Of a DNA stretch of 64,000 nucleotides, positions 36,534 to 50,268 are shown piece by piece. Position 1 is the stretch's first letter, and each line of letters begins with the position of its first letter. The translations under genes were made by a program, and so were the position numbers. The notes below the pieces were generated by a model. The model was not told the DNA's origin, made no database searches, and saw only the letters and a list, made by a program, of their open reading frames with translations. Source of the DNA: Gemmatimonadaceae bacterium (GTDB taxonomy: Bacteria > Gemmatimonadota > Gemmatimonadetes > Gemmatimonadales > Gemmatimonadaceae); contig JADLCY010000001.1 in the NCBI GenBank assembly GCA_020846935.1, positions 620,001-684,000 of the forward strand. The letters run 5' to 3'.

Positions 36534-39502
36534 TCCGGTCATCCGCGGACGCCGCGGGAAGGACCAGCTCAGCACCCCATCGGCGACAACGGCCCATTTC
36601 GACCCACCAGTCCAGCTCGCTCCGCCTCCGTGGCGCGCCAATCCAGGTCACCAGCTTCGTCGGACGCGATCGGGAAATTGCCGCGGTCCGTGACGCACTG
36701 TCGGCCACGCGGTTGCTCACGCTCACAGGTGCGGGCGGCAGCGGGAAGACGCGCCTGGCACTCGAAGTCGTCGAACGAGAGACCGCTGCGACGGACATCG
36801 AGGGCACGTGGGTCGAACTCGCGCCGCTGTCGGATCCGGCACGCCTGGGCGACACGGTGCTCGCCGCGATGGGCGTTCGCGACGAATCCGATGCGCCGGC
36901 CGTCGATCGCATTAGCGCCGCAATCGGTGAGCGTCCCTACCTCCTAGTGCTCGACAACGCCGAACATCTGGTCGACGCGACCGCTGCGCTCGTGCATGGG
37001 CTGCTGCGCGCGCAGCCTCGCATGCGTGTTCTCGTCACGAGCCGGGCCCCGCTGGGCGTCACGGGAGAGACGGCGTGGCTCGTCCCCCCCATGTCCCTGG
37101 GCGCCGGCACCGATGCCGAAGAAAGCGAAGCCGTGCAGCTCTTTGTGCAGCGCGGGCGTGCCGTCGTTCCTGCGTTCCGCCTGACGACTACCAACCGTGA
37201 CGCCGTGCGGCAAATCTGCGCTCGGCTCGATGGGCTTCCGCTCGCGCTGGAACTCGCCGCGGCCCGCCTCCGCGCGTTGTCGCCGATGCAGATCGCGAAC
37301 CGGCTCGACGACCGCTTCCGGCTCCTGACGACGGGCAATCGCGCCGCGCTGCCCCGCCAGCAAACGTTGCGCGCCGCGATCGACTGGAGCTACGACCTGC
37401 TCGCCGTGCCCGAGCGGCGGCTCTTCCAGCGTCTCAGTGTGTTTCGCGGCAGCTTCACCCTCGAGGCCGCGGAGTCCGTCACCGCCGGGGGCGACGTGGC
37501 AGGCGACGATGTGCTCGACCTCCTCGCCGCATTGATCGATCAATCGCTGGTGGAGGTGGTGGAGACACCGCTCGGCACGCGCTACCGGTTGCTGGAGACG
37601 ATGCGTGAGTACGGCGAGCAGTGCCTGACGACGGCGGGAGACGTCGCGCATCGGATGCACGCGCATGCCAGCTACTTCGTCGATCTGGTGCGCGAACTCG
37701 AACCGCGCCTGCGAACACCCGAGCGACCGGCGGCCATGGATAAGCTCGTCGCCGAGATCGAGAACCTGCGCCATGCGGTGCGGTGGACGCGCGAAGGCGA
37801 CGTGCAGCTCCATCTGCGACTCGTCGGCCTGCTTTACTGGTTCTGGTTCGGCACGGGACTGTGGCCCGAGGCGACCGGATGGCTGCATGGTGCCCTTTCT
37901 CTTCCCGAGGCCGCTGGAGAGACGCGTGACCGTGCCGCGTTGCTGTTCTCCGCGGGGGCGATCGCCGCCTTGCAGGCGCGGGGTGAGGAGGCGCGGCGAT
38001 TCCTCGAAGAAGCCGAGGTCATCGCCGAGCGCGAGGGCGACCGGCAGCTCCTGGCCAATGTGCGCAACTACCTGGGCATTGCGCTCAACCACGTTGGCGA
38101 TCCCGGCGCCGAGGCGGTGATCCTCCGCGCCAGGCCCTGGCTGCGTGAGGCGAATGACCTGTATGGGCTGCGCCTCAACTTCCTGCTGCAGGGCCAGTCG
38201 CTGGCCTCGCGTGGCGAACTCTCCGAGGCCGTTCGCGTCACCGAAGAGGGCGTACGCGTAGCGCGCGTGTTCGGCCAGGCGCGCGAACTCGGCATCGCGT
38301 TGCAGCAGCTCGCCAACGTAGTTGCCGCCACCGGCGACTGGCCACGAGCCAGATCCCTGCTGCGCGAGGCGCTCGACGCCATGCGGCGCGACCCGATGCT
38401 GCTCTTCACCGCGCGCGCGATCGAGCTGCTGGCGGCCAGCGCCGCGCACGAAGGCGCGTGCGAGGACGCGGCACGCCTGTATGGAGCTGCCCGCGGAATC
38501 CGTGACGCGATCGGTGCGGAGATGTGGGGCATCGACCGACAGCAACACGAACCGATCGTCGCGCGCGTGCGCGAGGCACTCGGGAGCGCCGCCCACGATC
38601 GCATCTTCGGGATCGGCCGAACGCTGACGGCCGTCCAGGCGCACGACCTGTCCATGGAAGTGGGCGAGCGACTCGGCGGGCCCACGGAGCCCGAACCCAC
38701 GCTGCAGACCGGAGAGTACCGCGCCAGCGTGGTGGAACGACCGCTGACACCGGTGCATGCCCTCGACGTGCGCGCGTTGGGCGCACTCGAGGTTCGAGTT
38801 GAGGGCGTACCGATGGCGCGGCGGGATTGGGCCTACTCAAAGGCGCGCGAACTCCTGGTGGCGTTGCTCGTCCGCCGCGACGGACTCAGCCGGGAGCAGG
38901 TGGGCGTGTGGCTCTGGCCCGATGCCTCGCCGACACAGCTACGCAACAACTTTCACGTCGCGCTGCACCACCTTCGCCGGAGCATCGGTCATCCCGAGTG
39001 GGTGCGATTCGACAGCGATCGGTATCGGCTCGACGTGCCTGGAACCGTCACGTTCGACGCGGCGACCTTCGAGCAGTCCGCCGAGGCCGCACTGCGCGAT
39101 GCGCGCCGCGGGAAGGGCGACGTCGACGCGCTGCGGACCGTGGTCGAGCGGTACCACGGCGAGTTTCTCGAGGGTGAGAGCGTGGGCGACTGGCAGCTCG
39201 AGATTCGCGACCGCCTCTCGCGCCTCTTTGCCGATGCCGCAGAGCGCCTGGGCTCGGCGCTGCACGACGGCCAGCATCCCGCGGAGGCCATCGTCGTGCT
39301 CGAGAGGCTGGTGGCTCGCGAACCCCTGCGCGAGAGCGCGTGGCGCGCGCTGATGTCGGCCCGCACCACGCTCGGCGATTCTGCTGGAGCCATCGCCGAC
39401 TATCGTCGGCTCGAGGCGACGCTCCGGCGCGAGGGCATGGGCGCTCCCTCACGCGAGACCGCCAACCTCGCGCAGCGCATCCGCGACGGTCGCCGCACGT
39501 GA
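36530..39502 (+). CDS. Large ATPase-TPR regulator with C-terminal winged-helix/BTAD domain
   Basis: About 990 aa if started at the CTG at 36530; the first conventional start, TTG 36713, would cut into the conserved motif VTSFVGRDREIAAVRDAL that precedes Walker A. There is no ATG, GTG or TTG between the in-frame stop at 36515 and 36713. Domains in order: NB-ARC/predicted ATPase with Walker A GAGGSGKTR and Walker B-like LVLDNAEHL, a helical linker, TPR-type repeats (about 350-620), then a winged-helix/BTAD module (about 740-985) with VRALGALEVRVEGVP and LLVRRDGLSREQVGVWLWPD. In SARP/AfsR proteins the winged-helix/BTAD module is N-terminal, so the order is reversed. Probably an ATP-dependent transcription regulator; targets unknown. 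Confidence 0.8.
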   Translation: MIRSSADAAGRTSSAPHRRQRPISTHQSSSLRLRGAPIQVTSFVGRDREIAAVRDALSATRLLTLTGAGGSGKTRLALEVVERETAATDIEGTWVELAPLSDPARLGDTVLAAMGVRDESDAPAVDRISAAIGERPYLLVLDNAEHLVDATAALVHGLLRAQPRMRVLVTSRAPLGVTGETAWLVPPMSLGAGTDAEESEAVQLFVQRGRAVVPAFRLTTTNRDAVRQICARLDGLPLALELAAARLRALSPMQIANRLDDRFRLLTTGNRAALPRQQTLRAAIDWSYDLLAVPERRLFQRLSVFRGSFTLEAAESVTAGGDVAGDDVLDLLAALIDQSLVEVVETPLGTRYRLLETMREYGEQCLTTAGDVAHRMHAHASYFVDLVRELEPRLRTPERPAAMDKLVAEIENLRHAVRWTREGDVQLHLRLVGLLYWFWFGTGLWPEATGWLHGALSLPEAAGETRDRAALLFSAGAIAALQARGEEARRFLEEAEVIAEREGDRQLLANVRNYLGIALNHVGDPGAEAVILRARPWLREANDLYGLRLNFLLQGQSLASRGELSEAVRVTEEGVRVARVFGQARELGIALQQLANVVAATGDWPRARSLLREALDAMRRDPMLLFTARAIELLAASAAHEGACEDAARLYGAARGIRDAIGAEMWGIDRQQHEPIVARVREALGSAAHDRIFGIGRTLTAVQAHDLSMEVGERLGGPTEPEPTLQTGEYRASVVERPLTPVHALDVRALGALEVRVEGVPMARRDWAYSKARELLVALLVRRDGLSREQVGVWLWPDASPTQLRNNFHVALHHLRRSIGHPEWVRFDSDRYRLDVPGTVTFDAATFEQSAEAALRDARRGKGDVDALRTVVERYHGEFLEGESVGDWQLEIRDRLSRLFADAAERLGSALHDGQHPAEAIVVLERLVAREPLRESAWRALMSARTTLGDSAGAIADYRRLEATLRREGMGAPSRETANLAQRIRDGRRT

Positions 39503-39748: not shown

Positions 39749-41158
39749 ATGGCCAGGCTGCCACGGATTGTCTCAGCCCTTCTCGCGCTGTCGCCGATGT
39801 TCGCCGCGCCCGATCCCGCGGCGGCGCAGGCCCCACGCCGTCCGAACATCGTGTTGATGTTCCCGGACAATCTTGGCTGGGGGGAGGTGGGGGCCTACGG
39901 CGGCGTACGCGGCGTGCCGACTCCAAATATCGACAGCATCGCCGCCCAGGGCATACGCCTCGACAACTTCAACGTCGAGTTCTCCTGCACGGTGTCGCGT
40001 GCCGCGTTGCTCACCGGCCGGTACGCCATCCGCTCGGCGGCGACGCAGCCCAGCGGCATCACGCAGTGGGAAGTCACGATCGCGGAGTTGCTCCAGTCCG
40101 CAGGCTACGCCACCGCCCTGTTCGGCAAATGGCATCTCGGTGGCACGAACTGGATTGAGGGGCGCACGCCCATCAACCAGGGCTTTGACGAGTGGTACGG
40201 CATCCCCAACACGAGCAACGAGGCGCAGACGACGACGCTGCCGGGCTACGATGCGTCGAAGGTCGAGGCGCCCTACATATGGGAGCAGAAGGCCGGCGGG
40301 CCGCCTACCAAGGCCAAGGTCTTCGATCTCGCGACACGCCGCACACTCGACCGCGAAGCCGCCATGAGGAGCATCGCCTTCATGGAGCGCAATGCGCGAG
40401 CGCAGAAGCCGTTCTTCCTGTTCTATCCACTCACGCAGGTGCACTTCCCCACGCTCCCGCATCCGGACTTTGCGGGGAAGACCGGCGCGGGCGACATCGG
40501 CGACGCCATGGCCGATGTCGACTACAACGTCGGACTCATCACGGCCGCCATCCGGCGTCTCGGGCTCGATGACGACACCATCGTGCTCTGGTGCACCGAC
40601 AACGGCGCGGAAGGACGGCGCCCGTGGCGCGGCAGTTCCGGCCCATGGCGTGGCTTCTACAACACCGTGATGGAAGGCGGCATCCGCACGCCGTGCGTAG
40701 CGAAGTGGACGGGTCACTTTCCCCGCGGCCGCACCTCCAGCGAGATCGTCCACGAGATGGACCTGTTTCCCACGCTCGCCGCGGCCGCCGGCATCACGAC
40801 CCTTCCCACCGACCGCGCCATCGACGGCATCAACATCCTTCCGTTCCTCGAGGGCAAGCGCTCCACCTCAGGTCGCGAGAGCGTGCTCTATTTCACCGGG
40901 ACGCAGGTGCGCGCCGTCAAATGGAAGGACTGGAAGTTCCACTACGCGTTCATGCCGGAGCCTCGCGTGACGGAGCCTCCGCTCGTGCGGCTGTTCAACC
41001 TGCGTTCCGACCCGCGCGAGGAGACCGACATCAAGGACGCCAACCCGTGGGCGCCCGGCACCTTCGACCGGATCGTCGCCGAATACACCGCGAGTCTCGA
41101 GCGTTTCCCCAACGTGGCGCCCAACGCCCGTGACCCCTGGGTGCCCCCGCGACGTTAG
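39749..41158 (+). CDS. Exported arylsulfatase-family protein
   Basis: 469 aa with a signal peptide cut near PAAAQA. Sulfatase-family motifs: NIVLMFPDNLGWGEVGAYGG with the metal Asp40/Asn41, C80-T-V-S-R84 with the putative formylglycine Cys, GKWHLGG, and WCTDNGAEG. The catalytic Cys and Arg are present but the consensus Pro (C-x-P-x-R) is Val, so maturation by the formylglycine enzyme is uncertain. It should hydrolyse sulfate esters outside the cytoplasm if active. Its stop overlaps the convergent gene's stop within CGTTAGGC. Confidence 0.88.
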   Translation: MARLPRIVSALLALSPMFAAPDPAAAQAPRRPNIVLMFPDNLGWGEVGAYGGVRGVPTPNIDSIAAQGIRLDNFNVEFSCTVSRAALLTGRYAIRSAATQPSGITQWEVTIAELLQSAGYATALFGKWHLGGTNWIEGRTPINQGFDEWYGIPNTSNEAQTTTLPGYDASKVEAPYIWEQKAGGPPTKAKVFDLATRRTLDREAAMRSIAFMERNARAQKPFFLFYPLTQVHFPTLPHPDFAGKTGAGDIGDAMADVDYNVGLITAAIRRLGLDDDTIVLWCTDNGAEGRRPWRGSSGPWRGFYNTVMEGGIRTPCVAKWTGHFPRGRTSSEIVHEMDLFPTLAAAAGITTLPTDRAIDGINILPFLEGKRSTSGRESVLYFTGTQVRAVKWKDWKFHYAFMPEPRVTEPPLVRLFNLRSDPREETDIKDANPWAPGTFDRIVAEYTASLERFPNVAPNARDPWVPPRR

Positions 41159-42595: not shown

Positions 42596-44224
42596 CTAAC
42601 GAGCCCACGGAACCTGCGGCGACCGGTAGAAGTTCACGCCGAGCGCCTGCAGCCGTGGGCCGTGGGCCGCGAGCCGCCATCGGAACTGCTCCCAGCCACG
42701 CACCGCCGGCGATGACCACCCAAGTTCGGCCACGGCCGCCAGCCGCGGAAACGCCATCAGTTCGAAGTCGGCCAGCGTCTCCAGTGTCTCGGACCAGAGC
42801 GGCGCCTCGACGCCAAGGATCGCCGTCTCGTTCACGCCGGGCCGGAACGTCGCTGGCTCCCAGTCGTAGGCCTGGCGGACGTCGATCAGCCCGGCCCAGC
42901 GCAGCCCGAGCACCGTCGCGCTGTCGTACTTCATGTCGAGATACATCCGCGGGCCGGGCGACAGGATGACCTTGCCACCGCGCGCCGCGTGGACGTGCGC
43001 CGAGTCCGCTCGCCAGTGCTGCACCACGGTGGAGGGAGCAAGGTTCGCCGTCGCGATCTCGCCCCAACCGATCATCTGCTTGCCGTGCGCCTGCACGATC
43101 CCCTGCGCGCGCTCGACGAATCGCACGTACTGCTCGTGTGTGAGCTTCTCCACCTCGTCGCCGCCGATGTGGAACCACGGGGACGGCACGAGGGCCGCGA
43201 TCTCGCGCACCACGTCATCCACGAAACGCCACGTGGCCGCGCCGTCGCTGCACAGTGCGCTGAACCCCACGCGTATCCCCGTGTAGGGCGGCGGCGCGAC
43301 CCCATCGCAGCTGAGCTCCGGATACGCCGACAGCGCTGCATTCACGTGCGCCGGCATGTCGATCTCCGGAATGACCTCGATGAAACGCGAACGCGCGTAG
43401 GCCACGATGTCGGCGAACTGCTCCTGCGTGTAGAACCCTCCAACGCCGCCGCCCACCTCCATGCGCCCACCCATCTGCGCGAGGTTTGGCCACGACCTGA
43501 TCTCGATGCGCCATCCCTGGTCGTCGGAGAGATGCAGGTGCAGGCGATTGAGCTTGTAGAGCGCCATCAGGTCGACGTGCCGCTTGACGTCGTCGGGCCC
43601 GAGAAAGTGGCGGGACACGTCGAGCATCGATCCCCGCCATGAGAACCGCGGCGCGTCGACGATGCGAACCGGCGGCATCCACAATCGCCGCCCGATGGCG
43701 TCGCGATGCTCGACCGCCGGAGGCAGCAACTGACGGATCGTCTGCACACCATGGAACAGACCGCGTACATCGACGGCCACCAACGTCACGTGGTCGGGAC
43801 CGACGTCGAGCTCGTAGCCTTCCGCGGGCATCGACGACCGATCGGCCACCAACTTCAGCGCCACCGTGTTCGCTGCCTGCGGAGCGCCAGCGATCGATCG
43901 CGTCACCTCCGGACGGCGCGGCCCCACCACGCGTGCGCTGCCTGGCGTCGCCGCGGCCGGATGCAGGTACAACATTCCCGCGAGCATGTCGGCCACCCGC
44001 GCGACCTCCTCGCTCGCGTCGGTCTCGATCACCACTCGCGTCATGGAATCCACCACGAACGGCTCGCCGCCGCGCGGCTCCGTGTTCAGTGGTGCGGGAA
44101 TCACCGCGTGCACGAGCCGCGGCGGGACATCGCGGGTGGCGACGTTGGCTCGCCCGGAGGCGCAGCCAACGAGGAACACGGCCGCCGACAGTCGGGCGGC
44201 GCGGGACAGGTCGAATGAGCGCAT
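42596..44224 (-). CDS. Beta-N-acetylhexosaminidase, GH20 family, lipoprotein
   Basis: 542 aa. A lipoprotein signal (LVGC) precedes an alpha/beta GH20b domain (about 40-170) and a GH20 TIM barrel (about 175-540). The catalytic Asp-Glu pair is in WFHIGGDEVEK; the substrate-binding HLSDDQGWRIEI, EVIPEIDMPAHVNAAL and W residues near the C-terminus (LGVEAPLWSETL) are intact. It removes terminal beta-linked GlcNAc or GalNAc from chitin oligomers, glycoproteins or peptidoglycan fragments by substrate-assisted catalysis with a retained N-acetyl group. Divergent from the Ig/cohesin operon. The stop lies within GCCTAACG. Confidence 0.93.
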   Translation of the reverse strand: MRSFDLSRAARLSAAVFLVGCASGRANVATRDVPPRLVHAVIPAPLNTEPRGGEPFVVDSMTRVVIETDASEEVARVADMLAGMLYLHPAAATPGSARVVGPRRPEVTRSIAGAPQAANTVALKLVADRSSMPAEGYELDVGPDHVTLVAVDVRGLFHGVQTIRQLLPPAVEHRDAIGRRLWMPPVRIVDAPRFSWRGSMLDVSRHFLGPDDVKRHVDLMALYKLNRLHLHLSDDQGWRIEIRSWPNLAQMGGRMEVGGGVGGFYTQEQFADIVAYARSRFIEVIPEIDMPAHVNAALSAYPELSCDGVAPPPYTGIRVGFSALCSDGAATWRFVDDVVREIAALVPSPWFHIGGDEVEKLTHEQYVRFVERAQGIVQAHGKQMIGWGEIATANLAPSTVVQHWRADSAHVHAARGGKVILSPGPRMYLDMKYDSATVLGLRWAGLIDVRQAYDWEPATFRPGVNETAILGVEAPLWSETLETLADFELMAFPRLAAVAELGWSSPAVRGWEQFRWRLAAHGPRLQALGVNFYRSPQVPWAR

Positions 44225-44517: not shown

Positions 44518-46863
44518 ATGCGCGTACCGGGCTCACCGACCGTCGTGCAGGCGGCAGCAGCACTCCTGTTCCTACTCCTCGCGGCCTGCGGTGGAGGGGG
44601 GGATGGGAACACCGGCCCAGGCCCCACCAATCCCCCAGTCCGCGTTCCTGCGTCGGTCACGTTCGAAGGCGGCAGCACCGCAACCGGCACAGTCGGGGTC
44701 GCGCTGCCAGCCGTCACGGTCCTCGTTCGCACCGCAGACGGACTCCCGGTGGCGCGGGCCAGCGTCAGCTTCTCCGTGTCGGCCGGCTCCCTGGCCTCGA
44801 CGAGCGCCCAGACCGACGACGCCGGTCGAGCCTCGTCAGGCGCCTGGACGCTGGGCACGACAGCCGGCACGCAAACGCTGACCGCCACCGCGGGTCCGGC
44901 CAGCGGTGCGCTCGTGGTGACCGCGCGCGCCGGCACGGCCGTTCGGCTTGAGTTCGTGACCGCCGCACCGGCCACCGTGCGCGCGGGAGTTCCCATGAAC
45001 CCCGCGCCCTCGCTTCGGGCCGTCGACCAGTTCAACAACGCAACGACCGGGGTGCAGGTCAGCGCCACGATCCAGACCGGAGGCGGCACGATCTCCGGCG
45101 GCTCGGCCACAGCCGACGCTGCGGGTGTTGCCACCTTCACCGGCTTGTCGATCGGCGGCACGATTGGCACGCGGGTGCTCGCCTTCTCCAGCCAGGGACT
45201 GCCGGTGGTGGCGAGCGGCGCCATCGCCGTCGACCCAGGCCTGGCCTCCGCCATCACGCTCACCAACGTCCCGGCCACCGCTCGTGCGGGTATCGTCGTC
45301 GTCCCAGCCGTCGAGGCCACGGTGAGCGATGCGTTCGGCAACGCGCTTACCAAACCGTCCACAGCGGTCACGATCAGCATGGCCCAGGGTGGCGGAAGCG
45401 TGGCCGGAGGCACGGCCACGACCGACGCTACCGGCAAGGCCACCTTTCCAGCCCTCGCCGTCGAAGGTCTGATCGGTGACAAACGACTGCGAGTCTCGGC
45501 CGACCAGGCCAGCGTGACCACGGGCATCATTCCGCTCTTCGCCGGGCCGGCCGCGTCGCTCGCCATTGCCTTCCAGCCTGCCCGGACAGATAACGCGGCG
45601 CCGTTCGCACAGCCCATCCGCGTGCAGGTCGCTGATCGATTTGGCAATGCCGTCGGCGACGTGCGCGACGTGACCGCGGCCATCGCCTCCGGCGGTGGCG
45701 CCATCGTCGCCAACACGGTGCGGAGCGACGCGGCCGGCGTTGCCACGTTCAGCCTGCTCAAGATCGTTGGGCTCTCGGGCCCGCGCACGCTCTCCTTCGC
45801 CGCCGCCGGGCTCACGAGCGCCCTGACGGCGCCTATCCAGCTCGACCCTGGACCGGTGCGCGGCTTCGTCATGCTGCAGCCGCCCTCGCCCGTGGTGGCG
45901 CACGGCGTGCCCTTTGCGCAGCAGCCCGTGCTGCAGGCCGCCGACACCTCGGGGAACCTGATCAAGCGCAGCGGGATCCTCGTGCGGGCCACGCTCCTTG
46001 ACGCCTCTGGTGAGCTGCTGAACGAGTCGACACTCACCGATGCCGCCGGCGTGGCCACGTATCAGCAGCTCACCTATCTCGCCCCCGGTACGCTGCCACC
46101 GGCCTTCAGGCTGCGCTTCAGCAGCGGCACGCAGGCCGTGCTCACCACCGGGAGTGTCGGCGTTCAGCTCCCCGTTCCCACCGGCGTGTCGGGTGTGCTG
46201 TACGGCGCGAGCACGCGCAAGCTCTACGTGATGGACGCCGGCACATCGCTGCCGCTCACGGCCGCGGCGTTCGGGCCCGGTGGCGCGCCCATGCCCGGAG
46301 TGCCGATGGTCTACACCTCGGCCAACGCCGCCGTGGTGGACGTGGCGAGCAACGGGACGCTCCGTGCCATGGCGCCCGGCAGCGCGTGGGTCCGCGCCTT
46401 TGGCGCCGGCTCCCCGTCGGTGCGCGATTCGGTGTACGTGACGGTCCCGCGCGACGCGACCGGCCCCGTCGTCATGACGACGCAACTCGTGCCGATCGTC
46501 GTGCGGCCCGGCCTCTCGCACGACTTCGACCTGGTCCTCGACACGCGCGGCACGACCGTGGGCGCGGCGACCATCCTGGTGGGCGTGCCGCAGGAACTCG
46601 TCAAGAACAGCGGCATCGCGTGGCAGGGCTCGCCCGGTACGCAGATCGGGTTCGACACGGGCTTCAACACGCTGCGCATCAGCTATGTGAACGCGACGGG
46701 CGCGACCGGGCAGGTCGTGCTCGCGAAGATACGCATCAACACGGGCCAGCCCGACTTCTTCGTCGACCGCGAGATCGTCATCACGCCGCAGGAAGTCGTG
46801 AGCGTGAACCTCGTCAACCTTGCCGGTCGCGCCACCGGCGTGAACATCCCCCTCGTGCCATGA
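44518..46863 (+). CDS. Ig-like (Big_1) repeat lipoprotein with C-terminal cohesin-like domain
   Basis: 781 aa from the ATG at 44518, supported by GGGAG nine bases upstream; an ATG at 44497 is in frame. A lipobox (LLLAAC) is followed by a Gly-rich linker and about five bacterial Ig-like group 1 repeats, each containing 'T-d-a-a-G-v-A-t-f' (TDDAGRASSGAW, TADAAGVATFTG, TTDATGKATFPA, RSDAAGVATFSL, LTDAAGVATYQQ), then a Big_2-like domain (TSANAAVVDVASNGTLRA). The last ~125 residues (TTQLVPIVVRPG ... ISYVNATGATGQVVLAKIRI) have the strand layout of a cohesin-type sandwich. It is the first gene of a four-gene overlapping operon and is probably the surface anchor. Confidence 0.82.
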   Translation: MRVPGSPTVVQAAAALLFLLLAACGGGGDGNTGPGPTNPPVRVPASVTFEGGSTATGTVGVALPAVTVLVRTADGLPVARASVSFSVSAGSLASTSAQTDDAGRASSGAWTLGTTAGTQTLTATAGPASGALVVTARAGTAVRLEFVTAAPATVRAGVPMNPAPSLRAVDQFNNATTGVQVSATIQTGGGTISGGSATADAAGVATFTGLSIGGTIGTRVLAFSSQGLPVVASGAIAVDPGLASAITLTNVPATARAGIVVVPAVEATVSDAFGNALTKPSTAVTISMAQGGGSVAGGTATTDATGKATFPALAVEGLIGDKRLRVSADQASVTTGIIPLFAGPAASLAIAFQPARTDNAAPFAQPIRVQVADRFGNAVGDVRDVTAAIASGGGAIVANTVRSDAAGVATFSLLKIVGLSGPRTLSFAAAGLTSALTAPIQLDPGPVRGFVMLQPPSPVVAHGVPFAQQPVLQAADTSGNLIKRSGILVRATLLDASGELLNESTLTDAAGVATYQQLTYLAPGTLPPAFRLRFSSGTQAVLTTGSVGVQLPVPTGVSGVLYGASTRKLYVMDAGTSLPLTAAAFGPGGAPMPGVPMVYTSANAAVVDVASNGTLRAMAPGSAWVRAFGAGSPSVRDSVYVTVPRDATGPVVMTTQLVPIVVRPGLSHDFDLVLDTRGTTVGAATILVGVPQELVKNSGIAWQGSPGTQIGFDTGFNTLRISYVNATGATGQVVLAKIRINTGQPDFFVDREIVITPQEVVSVNLVNLAGRATGVNIPLVP

Positions 46864-47408
46864 CGTCCATGACCCGCTTCTTCCTGCTCCCGCTCGCGGT
46901 GTGCGCCCTGATCGTTGCGTGCGACGACCGCGTGACCGTGGCCCCGCCGCAGCCGCTCGCGCCACCGGTGCCGGCCAACGCGCGACTCGTGCTCTCCGAT
47001 TCCACCGCGCGCGTGGGAGACGTGGTGACCGTCACCGCCTACGCGGCGCTCCCCGAGGGTGGCGCGATCGGCAGCTTCACGGCCCGCATGCTCTACGATT
47101 CGCTGCAGCTCGATGTCATGGAAGCCGAGGAGCCCGGCGATGGTGCACTGCGTGCGGTGAACCCGGTGACCGGCGCCTGGCGACTTGCGGGCGCGAGCGA
47201 TCGCGGCCTCCGCGAGGGACTGCTCTTTCGCGTCAAGGCCAGGGTGAAGGATCCACGCGGGCTCCGCCGCATCGCCCTCGCCATCGACGAGTTGCACAGC
47301 ACGCGATTCGCCGAGCTCACGCGTTCGCTCGACATCCGTGACGGCCGCGCCGAGTTGTTGAGCGGCATCAAGGGCATGCGCGTACAGCAGAAGGAGCCCA
47401 ACCGATGA
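46860..47408 (+). CDS. Cohesin-like lipoprotein
   Basis: 182 aa. The ATG overlaps the upstream stop (ATGA). A lipoprotein signal peptide (LIVAC) and a short Pro-rich linker are followed by one cohesin-like beta-sandwich: RLVLSDSTARVGDVVTVTAYA, the 'G-s-F-t-A-r-m-l-Y-D-s-L-q-L-d-V' signature, GLLFRVKARVKDPRGLRRI, and a final strand. Type I/II cohesins bind dockerin domains; here the only dockerin candidate is the last gene of the same operon. Confidence 0.75.
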   Translation: MTSMTRFFLLPLAVCALIVACDDRVTVAPPQPLAPPVPANARLVLSDSTARVGDVVTVTAYAALPEGGAIGSFTARMLYDSLQLDVMEAEEPGDGALRAVNPVTGAWRLAGASDRGLREGLLFRVKARVKDPRGLRRIALAIDELHSTRFAELTRSLDIRDGRAELLSGIKGMRVQQKEPNR

Positions 47409-47797
47409 CGCACCGTCACGCGCTGGCGGGACTCCTGCTGATCGCCGCCGGCTGCGCACGTTCGCGCGCCGAGTCGACGGCAACGGTCGCGCCCAGTCTC
47501 GAACGCATCGCGCCTGACACGATCGCAATCGGTCAGGGGGCGATTCCGACGCTCACGCTCACCGGCCGCGGCTTTGCCCCTGGCGCCGGTGGGAACACGG
47601 TTCGCGTCGGCCCCGCCGAAGTCCTCGGCGTCGATGCGGACAGCAGCGGCACCACGATGCGCGTCGTGCTGCCGCTCACCTACACGGATACAGCATCCCG
47701 CGGACGCCCATCCGGGTTTCTCCCCGGCCGGTACGACGTCATCGTCGTCACCTCACGTGGCGCCAGCAACCCGCTCACCCTGACGATGATCCGATGA
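47405..47797 (+). CDS. IPT/TIG-domain lipoprotein
   Basis: 130 aa; ATGA overlap with the upstream gene. A lipoprotein signal (LIAAGC) is followed by one IPT/TIG-type Ig fold: PSLERIAPDTIAIGQ, TLTLTGRGFAPGAGGNTVRVG and LPGRYDVIVVTSRGASNPLTLTM. IPT domains occur in extracellular receptors and enzymes as structural modules. It is likely a structural member of the complex encoded by this operon. Confidence 0.75.
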   Translation: MTHRHALAGLLLIAAGCARSRAESTATVAPSLERIAPDTIAIGQGAIPTLTLTGRGFAPGAGGNTVRVGPAEVLGVDADSSGTTMRVVLPLTYTDTASRGRPSGFLPGRYDVIVVTSRGASNPLTLTMIR

Positions 47798-50268
47798 CCT
47801 CCACGCCCTTCATCCGAGCCCTGGGACGCCTCGCCGTCCTGCTCCTCGCCGCGGTGGCGGGCTCTCGCGCCGAGGCTCAGCGCCCCAGCGTCGAAGACAT
47901 GCGCGAAGGCAGTCATCGCGAGCGCCTCGAATGGTTCGTCAACATGCGCGCGTATCCATTCAAACGCATGCCAGCCGACAAGGTGGCGGCAATGCGTGAG
48001 CTGCGCGGCAACGTCCGCGCCGGGGCTTATGCGTCCGGCAGCATCGGCGAGCGCTGGCAACCCATCGGGCCGTCCGGGTTCATCAGCATGAACACGCCGT
48101 ATTCGTCGAGTCCGATGACCGACGAGGGTCGCTTCACCTCGGTGGCGATCAACCCGCAGAACCCTCGGAACATTGTCGCCGGGTCGGGCAGCGCGGGCGT
48201 GTGGCGCACCGTCAATGGTGGCGCGTCGTGGCAAGCGGTGAGCGACAATGAGTGCGCCACGTCGATCGGGGCCATCACGTTCGACCCCGTCGACCCGCGG
48301 ATCATCTACGCCGGCACGGGCGAGATCTTCGACCCCTCGGGGCTCGGCCTCACCGACGGCTGCGGCATTCTCAAGTCCACCAACGGTGGCGACAGCTGGA
48401 CGCGCGTCGGCACGCAGCTGCTGTCACTCGGCGCGCAGTTCGGATCGGTGGTGTATCGCATGGCGGTCGATCGCGCCACCGCCGGCACGGCAAACGCGAC
48501 GACCGTGCTTGCCGCCACCAGTGTGGGGCTGCTGCACTCGAGCGACGGCGGCGCGAGCTGGACGCGCGTGCTCACCGGCGAGGTCACCGACGTCGTGCAG
48601 CATCCCACCAACCCGGCCGTGTTCTACGCCGCGATCGGTTCCTTCCGCGGCGCCACCGAAAACGGCGTCTATCGATCGTCGGACCGCGGGTTCACCTGGG
48701 TGCGGATCTCCGGGTCGCTGGGCACTCCGACGTCACTCGGTCGCACCACCCTGGCCGTGAGCCCGGCGCGGCCGACGGCGCTCTGGACTCTCGTGGCCAA
48801 CCCGCAGAACGAGAAGTTCCGCAGCCTGTCGCGCTGGGACGATGTGACACAGAGCTGGGTCAACCTCGCCGCCAACGGCGTGATGTTTCAGTCCGATTTC
48901 ATCGATTTCGGGACGCAGAGCAGCTACAACCTCGTGATCGGCGTCGATCCGGACGATGAGAACCGCGTGATCATCGGTGGCGTGCGACTGTTCCGGTCGC
49001 GCGACGGCGGCCAGAACTTCCAGCAGATCGCGGCCAACGTGCACAGTGACTGGCACGCGCTCGCCTTTGACCCCACCGACCCGCGACGACTCGTGACCGG
49101 GTGTGACGGCGGGATCTTCACGTCGACCAACGGCGGCGACACCTGGCGCAGCCTCAACAACGGCATCACCGCGACGCAGTTCTATCCCGGCATTCAGGTG
49201 CACCCGACCAACCCCAGCATCGTCGTCGGCGGCACGCAGGACAACGGCAGCATGATGTCCAACGGGGCCCTGCACTGGGCCGGCATCAGCTACGGCGACG
49301 GTGGATGGGCGATGATGGACTACACCAACCCCAACCTGCTGCTGACGTCCTCGCAGAACGGCAACCTGCAGCGCCACGACCTGAGCACGCGGTCGTTCCA
49401 GCCCCTGCAGCCGCAGTATCGCTTCCGCCCTTCGTTCATCACGCCGTTCATCATCGACCCGCTGAACCCGCGTACCGTGTACGCCGGCACGCTCGCCATC
49501 GAGCGATCGACCGACTTCGGCTCCAACTGGGCGCAAATGTCGCCCCAGTTCCAGAGCAACGTGACGGCGATGGCCATCAACCGTGGCTCGCCGCAGACCA
49601 TGCTCATCGGCACCGCCACCGGGCAGGTGGGACTGAGCCGCGATGGCGGTGTGCTGTGGGCCATCGGTACCCTGGTCTCTCGCGCCGTCTCCGATGTCGC
49701 CTACGACCCCAACGATCCACTGCGTTTCCTGATCACCTGGTCCGGCTTCAGCGCTCCAAAGGTCGCGCTGAGCGTGAACGGTGGCCTGAACTACACCAAC
49801 ATCTCGGCAAACCTGCCGGACATTCCCGTCAACGCGGTGGTGTTCACGCCGACTCGGGACCGCTTCTTCATCGGCAGCGACGTCGGAGTCTGGGAGACGG
49901 TGAATGGCGGCCAGAGCTGGAGCCTCACCCAGGGCCTCCCCAGCGTGCCGGTCACCGACCTGGTGTACCACGCGGCGTCCAATCGGATCGTCGCCGGCAC
50001 GTATGGGCGCGGTATCTGGTCGCTCCCGCTCACCACGGAGCCGCCGGTGCTGCGCGGCGACGTGGACCGCAACGGCATCGTCAACGCGGCGGATGCGTTG
50101 CTGATCCAGCAGGCCCTCGCGCAGATTCGGCTGCCCGCGACGTTCACGAGCATGCCGCACGGCGACGCCAACTGCAGCGGCGGCCTCGATGCCGCGGACG
50201 CGCTCATCGTCCTGCGCTTTGCCGTCGGGCTGGGCACCGGCGGGACCTGTGTGAACACCGCGCAGTAG
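47794..50268 (+). CDS. BNR/VPS10-like beta-propeller protein with C-terminal dockerin-like domain
   Basis: 824 aa; ATGA overlap with the upstream gene. A signal peptide is cut near RAEAQ. Residues ~85-750 hold about ten BNR-type repeats ('S/N-x-G-G-x-x-W': VNGGASW, TNGGDSW, SDGGASW, RDGGQNF, TNGGDTW, RDGGVLW, VNGGLNY, VNGGQSW), giving one or two large propellers as in sortilin or GH74-like exo-acting proteins. The last ~65 residues contain two dockerin-like calcium-binding repeats: GDVDRNGIVNAADALLIQQA and GDANCSGGLDAADALIVLRF. The module should dock to a cohesin, and cohesin-like folds are in the first two genes of the operon. No catalytic pair is identified. Confidence 0.85.
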   Translation: MTSTPFIRALGRLAVLLLAAVAGSRAEAQRPSVEDMREGSHRERLEWFVNMRAYPFKRMPADKVAAMRELRGNVRAGAYASGSIGERWQPIGPSGFISMNTPYSSSPMTDEGRFTSVAINPQNPRNIVAGSGSAGVWRTVNGGASWQAVSDNECATSIGAITFDPVDPRIIYAGTGEIFDPSGLGLTDGCGILKSTNGGDSWTRVGTQLLSLGAQFGSVVYRMAVDRATAGTANATTVLAATSVGLLHSSDGGASWTRVLTGEVTDVVQHPTNPAVFYAAIGSFRGATENGVYRSSDRGFTWVRISGSLGTPTSLGRTTLAVSPARPTALWTLVANPQNEKFRSLSRWDDVTQSWVNLAANGVMFQSDFIDFGTQSSYNLVIGVDPDDENRVIIGGVRLFRSRDGGQNFQQIAANVHSDWHALAFDPTDPRRLVTGCDGGIFTSTNGGDTWRSLNNGITATQFYPGIQVHPTNPSIVVGGTQDNGSMMSNGALHWAGISYGDGGWAMMDYTNPNLLLTSSQNGNLQRHDLSTRSFQPLQPQYRFRPSFITPFIIDPLNPRTVYAGTLAIERSTDFGSNWAQMSPQFQSNVTAMAINRGSPQTMLIGTATGQVGLSRDGGVLWAIGTLVSRAVSDVAYDPNDPLRFLITWSGFSAPKVALSVNGGLNYTNISANLPDIPVNAVVFTPTRDRFFIGSDVGVWETVNGGQSWSLTQGLPSVPVTDLVYHAASNRIVAGTYGRGIWSLPLTTEPPVLRGDVDRNGIVNAADALLIQQALAQIRLPATFTSMPHGDANCSGGLDAADALIVLRFAVGLGTGGTCVNTAQ

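Follow-up and report, generated by a model that had tools for sequence, protein, structure and literature searches.

Four genes on the forward strand of the window (the whole 64,000-nucleotide stretch of DNA that was analysed) form a single overlapping transcription unit for three lipoproteins and one soluble exoprotein. Gene 1 (44518–46863) encodes a lipoprotein with the lipobox LAAC, in which a stalk of the bacterial Ig-like Big_1 type (Pfam E 2.5e-17) is followed by a C-terminal cohesin domain at 46468–46860 (residues 651–781). Gene 2 (46860–47408, lipobox IVAC) is a lipoprotein with a single cohesin at about 46977–47360, gene 3 (47405–47797, lipobox AAGC) is a small accessory lipoprotein with an IPT/TIG-like domain, and gene 4 (47794–50268) encodes a secreted beta-propeller of BNR/Sortilin-Vps10 type that ends in a dockerin (50056–50238) with two F-hand repeats, GDVDRNGIVNAADALL and GDANCSGGLDAADALI. 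The lipoprotein signal peptides of genes 1, 2 and 3 and the Sec-type signal peptide of gene 4 were recognised by inspection of the sequence. The listing of open reading frames and the sequence agree on ATGA overlaps at all three junctions (46860, 47405 and 47794), and the four-gene operon of the first-pass annotation stands with its coordinates, strand and junctions. A GGGAG motif lies 7 nt upstream of ATG 44518, and this start of gene 1 is preferred over the in-frame ATG 44497. A scan for an operon promoter or terminator gave no signal above shuffled sequences.

A gene for a GH20 beta-hexosaminidase lipoprotein (42596–44224, reverse strand) is divergent from the operon, as first annotated, but is no part of the system, because none of the other operon loci that we read has a GH20 gene alongside, and we rejected it as a component. 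A sulfatase is encoded near it (39749–41158, forward strand), and the two possibly belong to an amino-sugar or glycan utilisation neighbourhood. Another gene at 36713–39502 (forward strand) encodes a regulator-like protein that combines NB-ARC and TPR regions with a C-terminal BTAD, which is an unusual domain order.

The two cohesins are divergent, as neither the gene 1 nor the gene 2 sequence of the window matches Pfam Cohesin (PF00963), and searches of PDB sequences with each of them singly retrieved no cohesin. These misses are a matter of sensitivity, which family profiles solve. In the alignments that we built for 17 gene 2 domains and 17 gene 1 C-termini, PF00963 is matched by 12 of the former (best E 1.4e-7) and 5 of the latter (best E 6e-12), so that the HMM search proposed with the first-pass annotation gives no match for the window sequences but does for part of the homologues of each. 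Against the PDB, the gene 2 family profile retrieves 23 sequences, each a cohesin to judge by names and titles, and the gene 1 C-terminal profile finds 11, 10 of them cohesins; the two profiles also match each other in hhalign (probability 98.5). The AF2 model of gene 2 (pLDDT 88) has nine strands, and its top 46 structural matches are all cohesins, the best being 2jh2 (Z 13.4, rmsd 2.4, 118 residues aligned). For the gene 1 domain (pLDDT 89) the top 25 matches are all cohesins, with 2vo8 and 2xdh the best (Z 13.3), followed by CLIPPER, integrin and pilin sandwiches at Z 10–11. Foldseek likewise leads from the gene 2 model to cohesins and from the gene 1 model mostly to cohesins, with integrin domains interspersed. 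Gene 2 is thus predicted to adopt the nine-stranded jelly-roll cohesin fold, and the gene 1 C-terminus the cohesin fold as well. Both sandwiches match cohesins best rather than generic Ig folds, and the earlier description of gene 1 as ending in a cohesin-like sandwich and of gene 2 as a lipoprotein that is nearly all one cohesin is borne out at the family level and by predicted structure.

Among 54 gene 2 homologues remaining after removal of near-duplicates, conservation is higher in strands 8-3-6-5 than in the other sheet (mean Jensen-Shannon 0.41 versus 0.31, p 0.0017, in a comparison without control for structural constraint). From established cohesin structures, we take 8-3-6-5 to be the dockerin-binding sheet of cellulosomal cohesins.

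The partner module is at the other end of the operon. Pfam finds Sortilin-Vps10 (E 6.5e-24), BNR and Dockerin_1 in gene 4, which confirms a BNR propeller with C-terminal calcium-binding repeats, but the two repeats make up one dockerin and not two. The Dockerin_1 (PF00404) score is 32.5 bits for the tail alone and 26.4 for the whole protein, against a gathering cut-off of 22.9, and it is the only PF00404 match over the cut-off genome-wide. Among PDB sequences, the dockerin matches mostly cellulosomal ones. The calcium-ligand positions 1, 3, 5, 9 and 12 are filled in both loops of the sequence (D-D-N-N-D and D-N-S-D-D), and D756, D767, D791, N793 and D802 are invariant across 10 gene 4 homologues (mean column identity 53%). 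Equally invariant in these homologues are two cysteines, one in loop 2 (Cys794) and one immediately past the domain (Cys819), and 36 of 41 C-terminal dockerins have both a loop 2 and a tail cysteine, the tail reading CVGTxR or similar. The pair is likely to form a disulphide clasp, and together with the conserved 8-3-6-5 sheet it supports real docking. The propeller itself bears a distant resemblance to sortilin propellers and to BNR glycosyl hydrolases: its matches to PDB entries of BNR glycosyl hydrolases are weak (6p2l, E 2.8e-4; 3b7f, E 5.7e-9), with no reliable alignment over the catalytic residues that would tell whether it has the Asp pair of a GH74-type enzyme, and the NCBIfam model of F510_1955 glycosylhydrolase scores 133 bits against a cut-off of 175.

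The assignment of gene 3 as an IPT/TIG lipoprotein was right as to the lipoprotein, and the gene belongs to a family conserved in the operon, but its TIG (PF01833) match (E 0.04, 14.4 bits) lies under the cut-off of 20.9, hence the wording IPT/TIG-like only. CoaZ_rpt, at 25.4 bits, is also under its cut-off of 30. The gene 3 family occurs in 18 of 24 related operons, one of which encodes it as a fusion with the gene 2 cohesin.

Is the association between these cohesins and dockerins general? Of 200 genomes from the phylum, 38 have a match to gene 2, some of the weakest by chance. Among 17 loci found via gene 2 alone, 15 encode a dockerin protein within the cluster; the contig of one exception ends within the next gene (L047) and the other has no dockerin protein (L055). 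One locus from the gene 2 search (L050, G126) proved to be a false positive with no cohesin by profile. Conversely, at the 24 loci found via the propeller-dockerin alone that have upstream DNA present, a gene 1-type cohesin is encoded in 24, a gene 2-type cohesin in 23 (L126 is an operon lacking gene 2) and an IPT-like protein in 18. The two sets partly overlap, as some genomes are in both collections. The same gene order, which it had been suggested to look for in other Gemmatimonadota, does therefore recur there. Across 298 genomes of the phylum, the gene 2-type cohesin is present in 51, a dockerin in 64 and both in 42, so that a dockerin accompanies the cohesin in 42 of 51 genomes as against 22 of 247 without it (Fisher p 3.9e-26, a significance inflated by species relatedness). 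Adjacency within the operon is independent of this inflation by kinship. Gene 2-like cohesins without a neighbouring dockerin also exist, at L055, L091, L093 and L094.

Near-universal adjacency also bears on a different reading of the repeats, namely that they serve C-terminal sorting or are a calcium-binding module of generic kind, to which the cohesin-fold lipoproteins do not bind. The CVGTxR tail or a close form of it ends most C-terminal dockerins, which suggests a sorting tag, and dockerin repeats in giant Omnitrophota ORFs have been reported as possible adhesins (PMC10066038). However, in other families the dockerin is N-terminal, without such a C-terminal tail following it, and cohesin lipoproteins are still adjacent. 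With the strands of the dockerin-binding sheet conserved in addition, we strongly doubt this explanation.

A cohesin elsewhere in the genome offers another potential partner. Contig 15 of G000 encodes a lipoprotein (L053:5369-7837) beside a type IV pilus secretin, in which a cohesin domain is combined with a stretch of lactonase-like propeller. No other cohesin passed the Pfam cut-off in the genome-wide search, and the protein is encoded next to pilQ, so the gene 4 dockerin could mainly dock there, as part of secretion. Homologues of this protein occur in 51 of 150 genomes, however, many of which have no dockerin at all, and genomes with the operon such as G056, G062, G082 and G091 yielded none. 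We consider the pilus-linked cohesin hardly credible as the main partner of gene 4.

The proteins that carry the dockerin vary among genera and families; what persists is the dockerin itself, together with the cohesin pair. Dockerins are found on an S8 subtilase beside cohesin lipoproteins (L044, with L049 alike by sequence), on M6 (L095) and M8-type (L098) peptidases and, by a weak match, on a peptidase of M12 type that also has PPC domains (L086). Others are carried by right-handed beta-helices (L099, L100), RCC1 propellers (L088, L052), a PD40 propeller (L099), a nidogen-like protein (L100) and very long proteins of Ig/invasin type (L096, L097). At L099 a single cohesin pair is adjoined by four consecutive dockerin proteins, and cargo chains reach 2,500 aa. 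The second batch of loci was chosen for cohesin or dockerin matches and so displays the variety of cargo, not its frequency. In the 21 exoproteins scanned in related loci there are no cellulase, xylanase or other plant-wall hydrolase families; they carry peptidase, propeller, helix or Ig domains instead. The statement that the operon lacks a polysaccharide-degrading domain thus holds, and extends to these 21 related exoproteins, subject to the distant likeness of the propeller to BNR glycosyl hydrolases. At several loci (L044, L045, L051, L088, L098, L099 and L100) the dockerin is directly adjoined by a further cohesin within the same chain. Such cohesin-dockerin dyads, which are comparable to X-dockerin dyads, occupy one or the other end of the exoprotein, and in several cases cysteines flank the dockerin.

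What would such a set of proteins do? We consider it quite probable that the operon encodes a calcium-dependent, lipoprotein-anchored cohesin-dockerin docking system for swappable exoproteins. The gene 4 propeller would be exported via Sec, bearing a calcium-folded and probably disulphide-clasped dockerin, which would plug into the gene 2 cohesin as a short anchor and/or into the gene 1 cohesin, which would sit atop the Ig-like stalk as a long anchor. Lipid would tether both cohesin proteins to a membrane, and the propeller would thereby be held at the cell envelope, most likely at its outer surface. The identities of the domains, the types of signal, the order and conservation of the genes and the swapping of cargo are shown by sequence or prediction; the binding of the gene 4 dockerin to the cohesins of genes 1 and 2, the need for calcium and the surface retention of the propeller are what we infer. 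The system is modular, in that relatives have peptidases, beta-helix proteins, RCC1 propellers or adhesins in place of the propeller and keep the cohesin pair and dockerin. Since the set recurs across the phylum with different cargo, it reads as clip-on retention at the envelope and not as a machine for cellulose. The earlier suggestion that the pair builds a non-cellulosomal complex around a propeller is supported as an interpretation by the cohesin matches and the conserved gene order.

The side of the envelope on which docking would take place also has to be considered. In didermic bacteria lipoproteins often face the periplasm, and the operon encodes no outer-membrane translocator, so the lipoproteins could face inwards and form an envelope complex in the periplasm, where the propeller would serve assembly or quality control. 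The cargo that takes the place of the propeller in relatives (S8, M6 and M8 peptidases, Big/invasin-type adhesins, beta-helices and chains of up to 2,500 aa) is, in contrast, of kinds typical outside the cell. Behind the lipid cysteine, 27 of 38 gene 2-like lipoproteins have an acidic residue between +2 and +5, recalling the surface-export signal of Bacteroidota, but this is only suggestive because gene 1-like lipoproteins show the same (18 of 29). We therefore regard periplasmic docking as a serious though fairly unlikely alternative to docking at the outer surface.

A more specific version of surface docking is that the phylum shares a display platform in which each dockerin bridges the short and the stalked lipoprotein cohesins, with one repeat for each, and the disulphide clasp makes docking near-permanent. 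The idea arises because nearly every locus has two distinct cohesins per dockerin and the cargo is freely swapped; in this full form it is distinctly unlikely.

The closest known parallel is the cellulosome (type I and II of Clostridium/Acetivibrio thermocellum), which likewise combines the cohesin fold with a two-repeat type I dockerin, and in which the likeness extends to anchored cohesins that here would retain dockerin-bearing exoproteins. In contrast to the cellulosome, the operon has no multi-cohesin scaffoldin and no recognised cellulase or xylanase, lipoproteins serve as the anchors, the genes of each cohesin pair come with those of its own cargo and the dockerin has a conserved cysteine pair. 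Pfam and family-profile searches of the organism's own genome, of which the Pfam search misses divergent cohesins, revealed no tandem-cohesin chain, and no dockerin is found on a plant-cell-wall hydrolase, the only one over the cut-off in the genome being that on the propeller. With no scaffoldin and no recognised wall-degrading enzyme found, the system is not a cellulosome, although it would act much as the anchoring part of one does.

Structurally the window cohesins are nearest to non-cellulosomal ones, from Archaeoglobus fulgidus (2xdh) and from the GH84 and GH33 enzymes of Clostridium perfringens (2jh2, 2vo8). In ANME archaea (PMC9012536) and Cloacimonadota (PMC8542988), dockerin and cohesin proteins go together with peptidases or binding proteins and, in some cases, with proteins resembling scaffoldin. 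Compared with such non-cellulosomal cohesins, including those of ANME archaea (PMC9012536), which likewise occur apart from cellulose degradation, the Gemmatimonadota set differs in its conserved operon, its two single-cohesin lipoproteins and its swappable cargo. Candidatus Stygibacter (Cloacimonadota) resembles it in having an S8 peptidase among the dockerin bearers and in lying outside the classical cellulolytic Firmicutes, but its scaffoldin of 3,755 aa, which carries CBMs and tandem cohesins, and its GH18/GH57 cargo are not seen in the Gemmatimonadota operons (PMC8542988). The literature searched, which lacks most subscription papers, contains no description of cohesin-dockerin systems in Gemmatimonadota, an absence that is not proof.

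Outside the class of the window's organism, six genomes of family f10 (G001, G003, G005, G007, G009 and G011) have 13–21 dockerin matches each among those listed, on FG-GAP propellers, an S8 peptidase, a beta-helix, an FGE-sulfatase domain and cadherin/Ig proteins. Four of the f10 genomes were searched for cohesins and have 8–11 matches, including a multi-cohesin protein of ~1,120 aa with a type IX-like C-terminal tail. The f10 set, with loci such as L147 (G003:C41) and L148 (G007:C105), is apparently a separate, scaffoldin-like and non-cellulosic system.

The Gemmatimonadota operons may be a source of new orthogonal cohesin-dockerin pairs, apparently disulphide-clasped, for protein display. 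The roles of cohesins and dockerins outside cellulosomes have long been an open question, partly because scattered genes make the partners hard to match. Here a dockerin, two cohesins and the cargo are encoded in one overlapping and conserved operon, so that partner, stoichiometry and location become directly testable in a phylum that is widespread and poorly understood.
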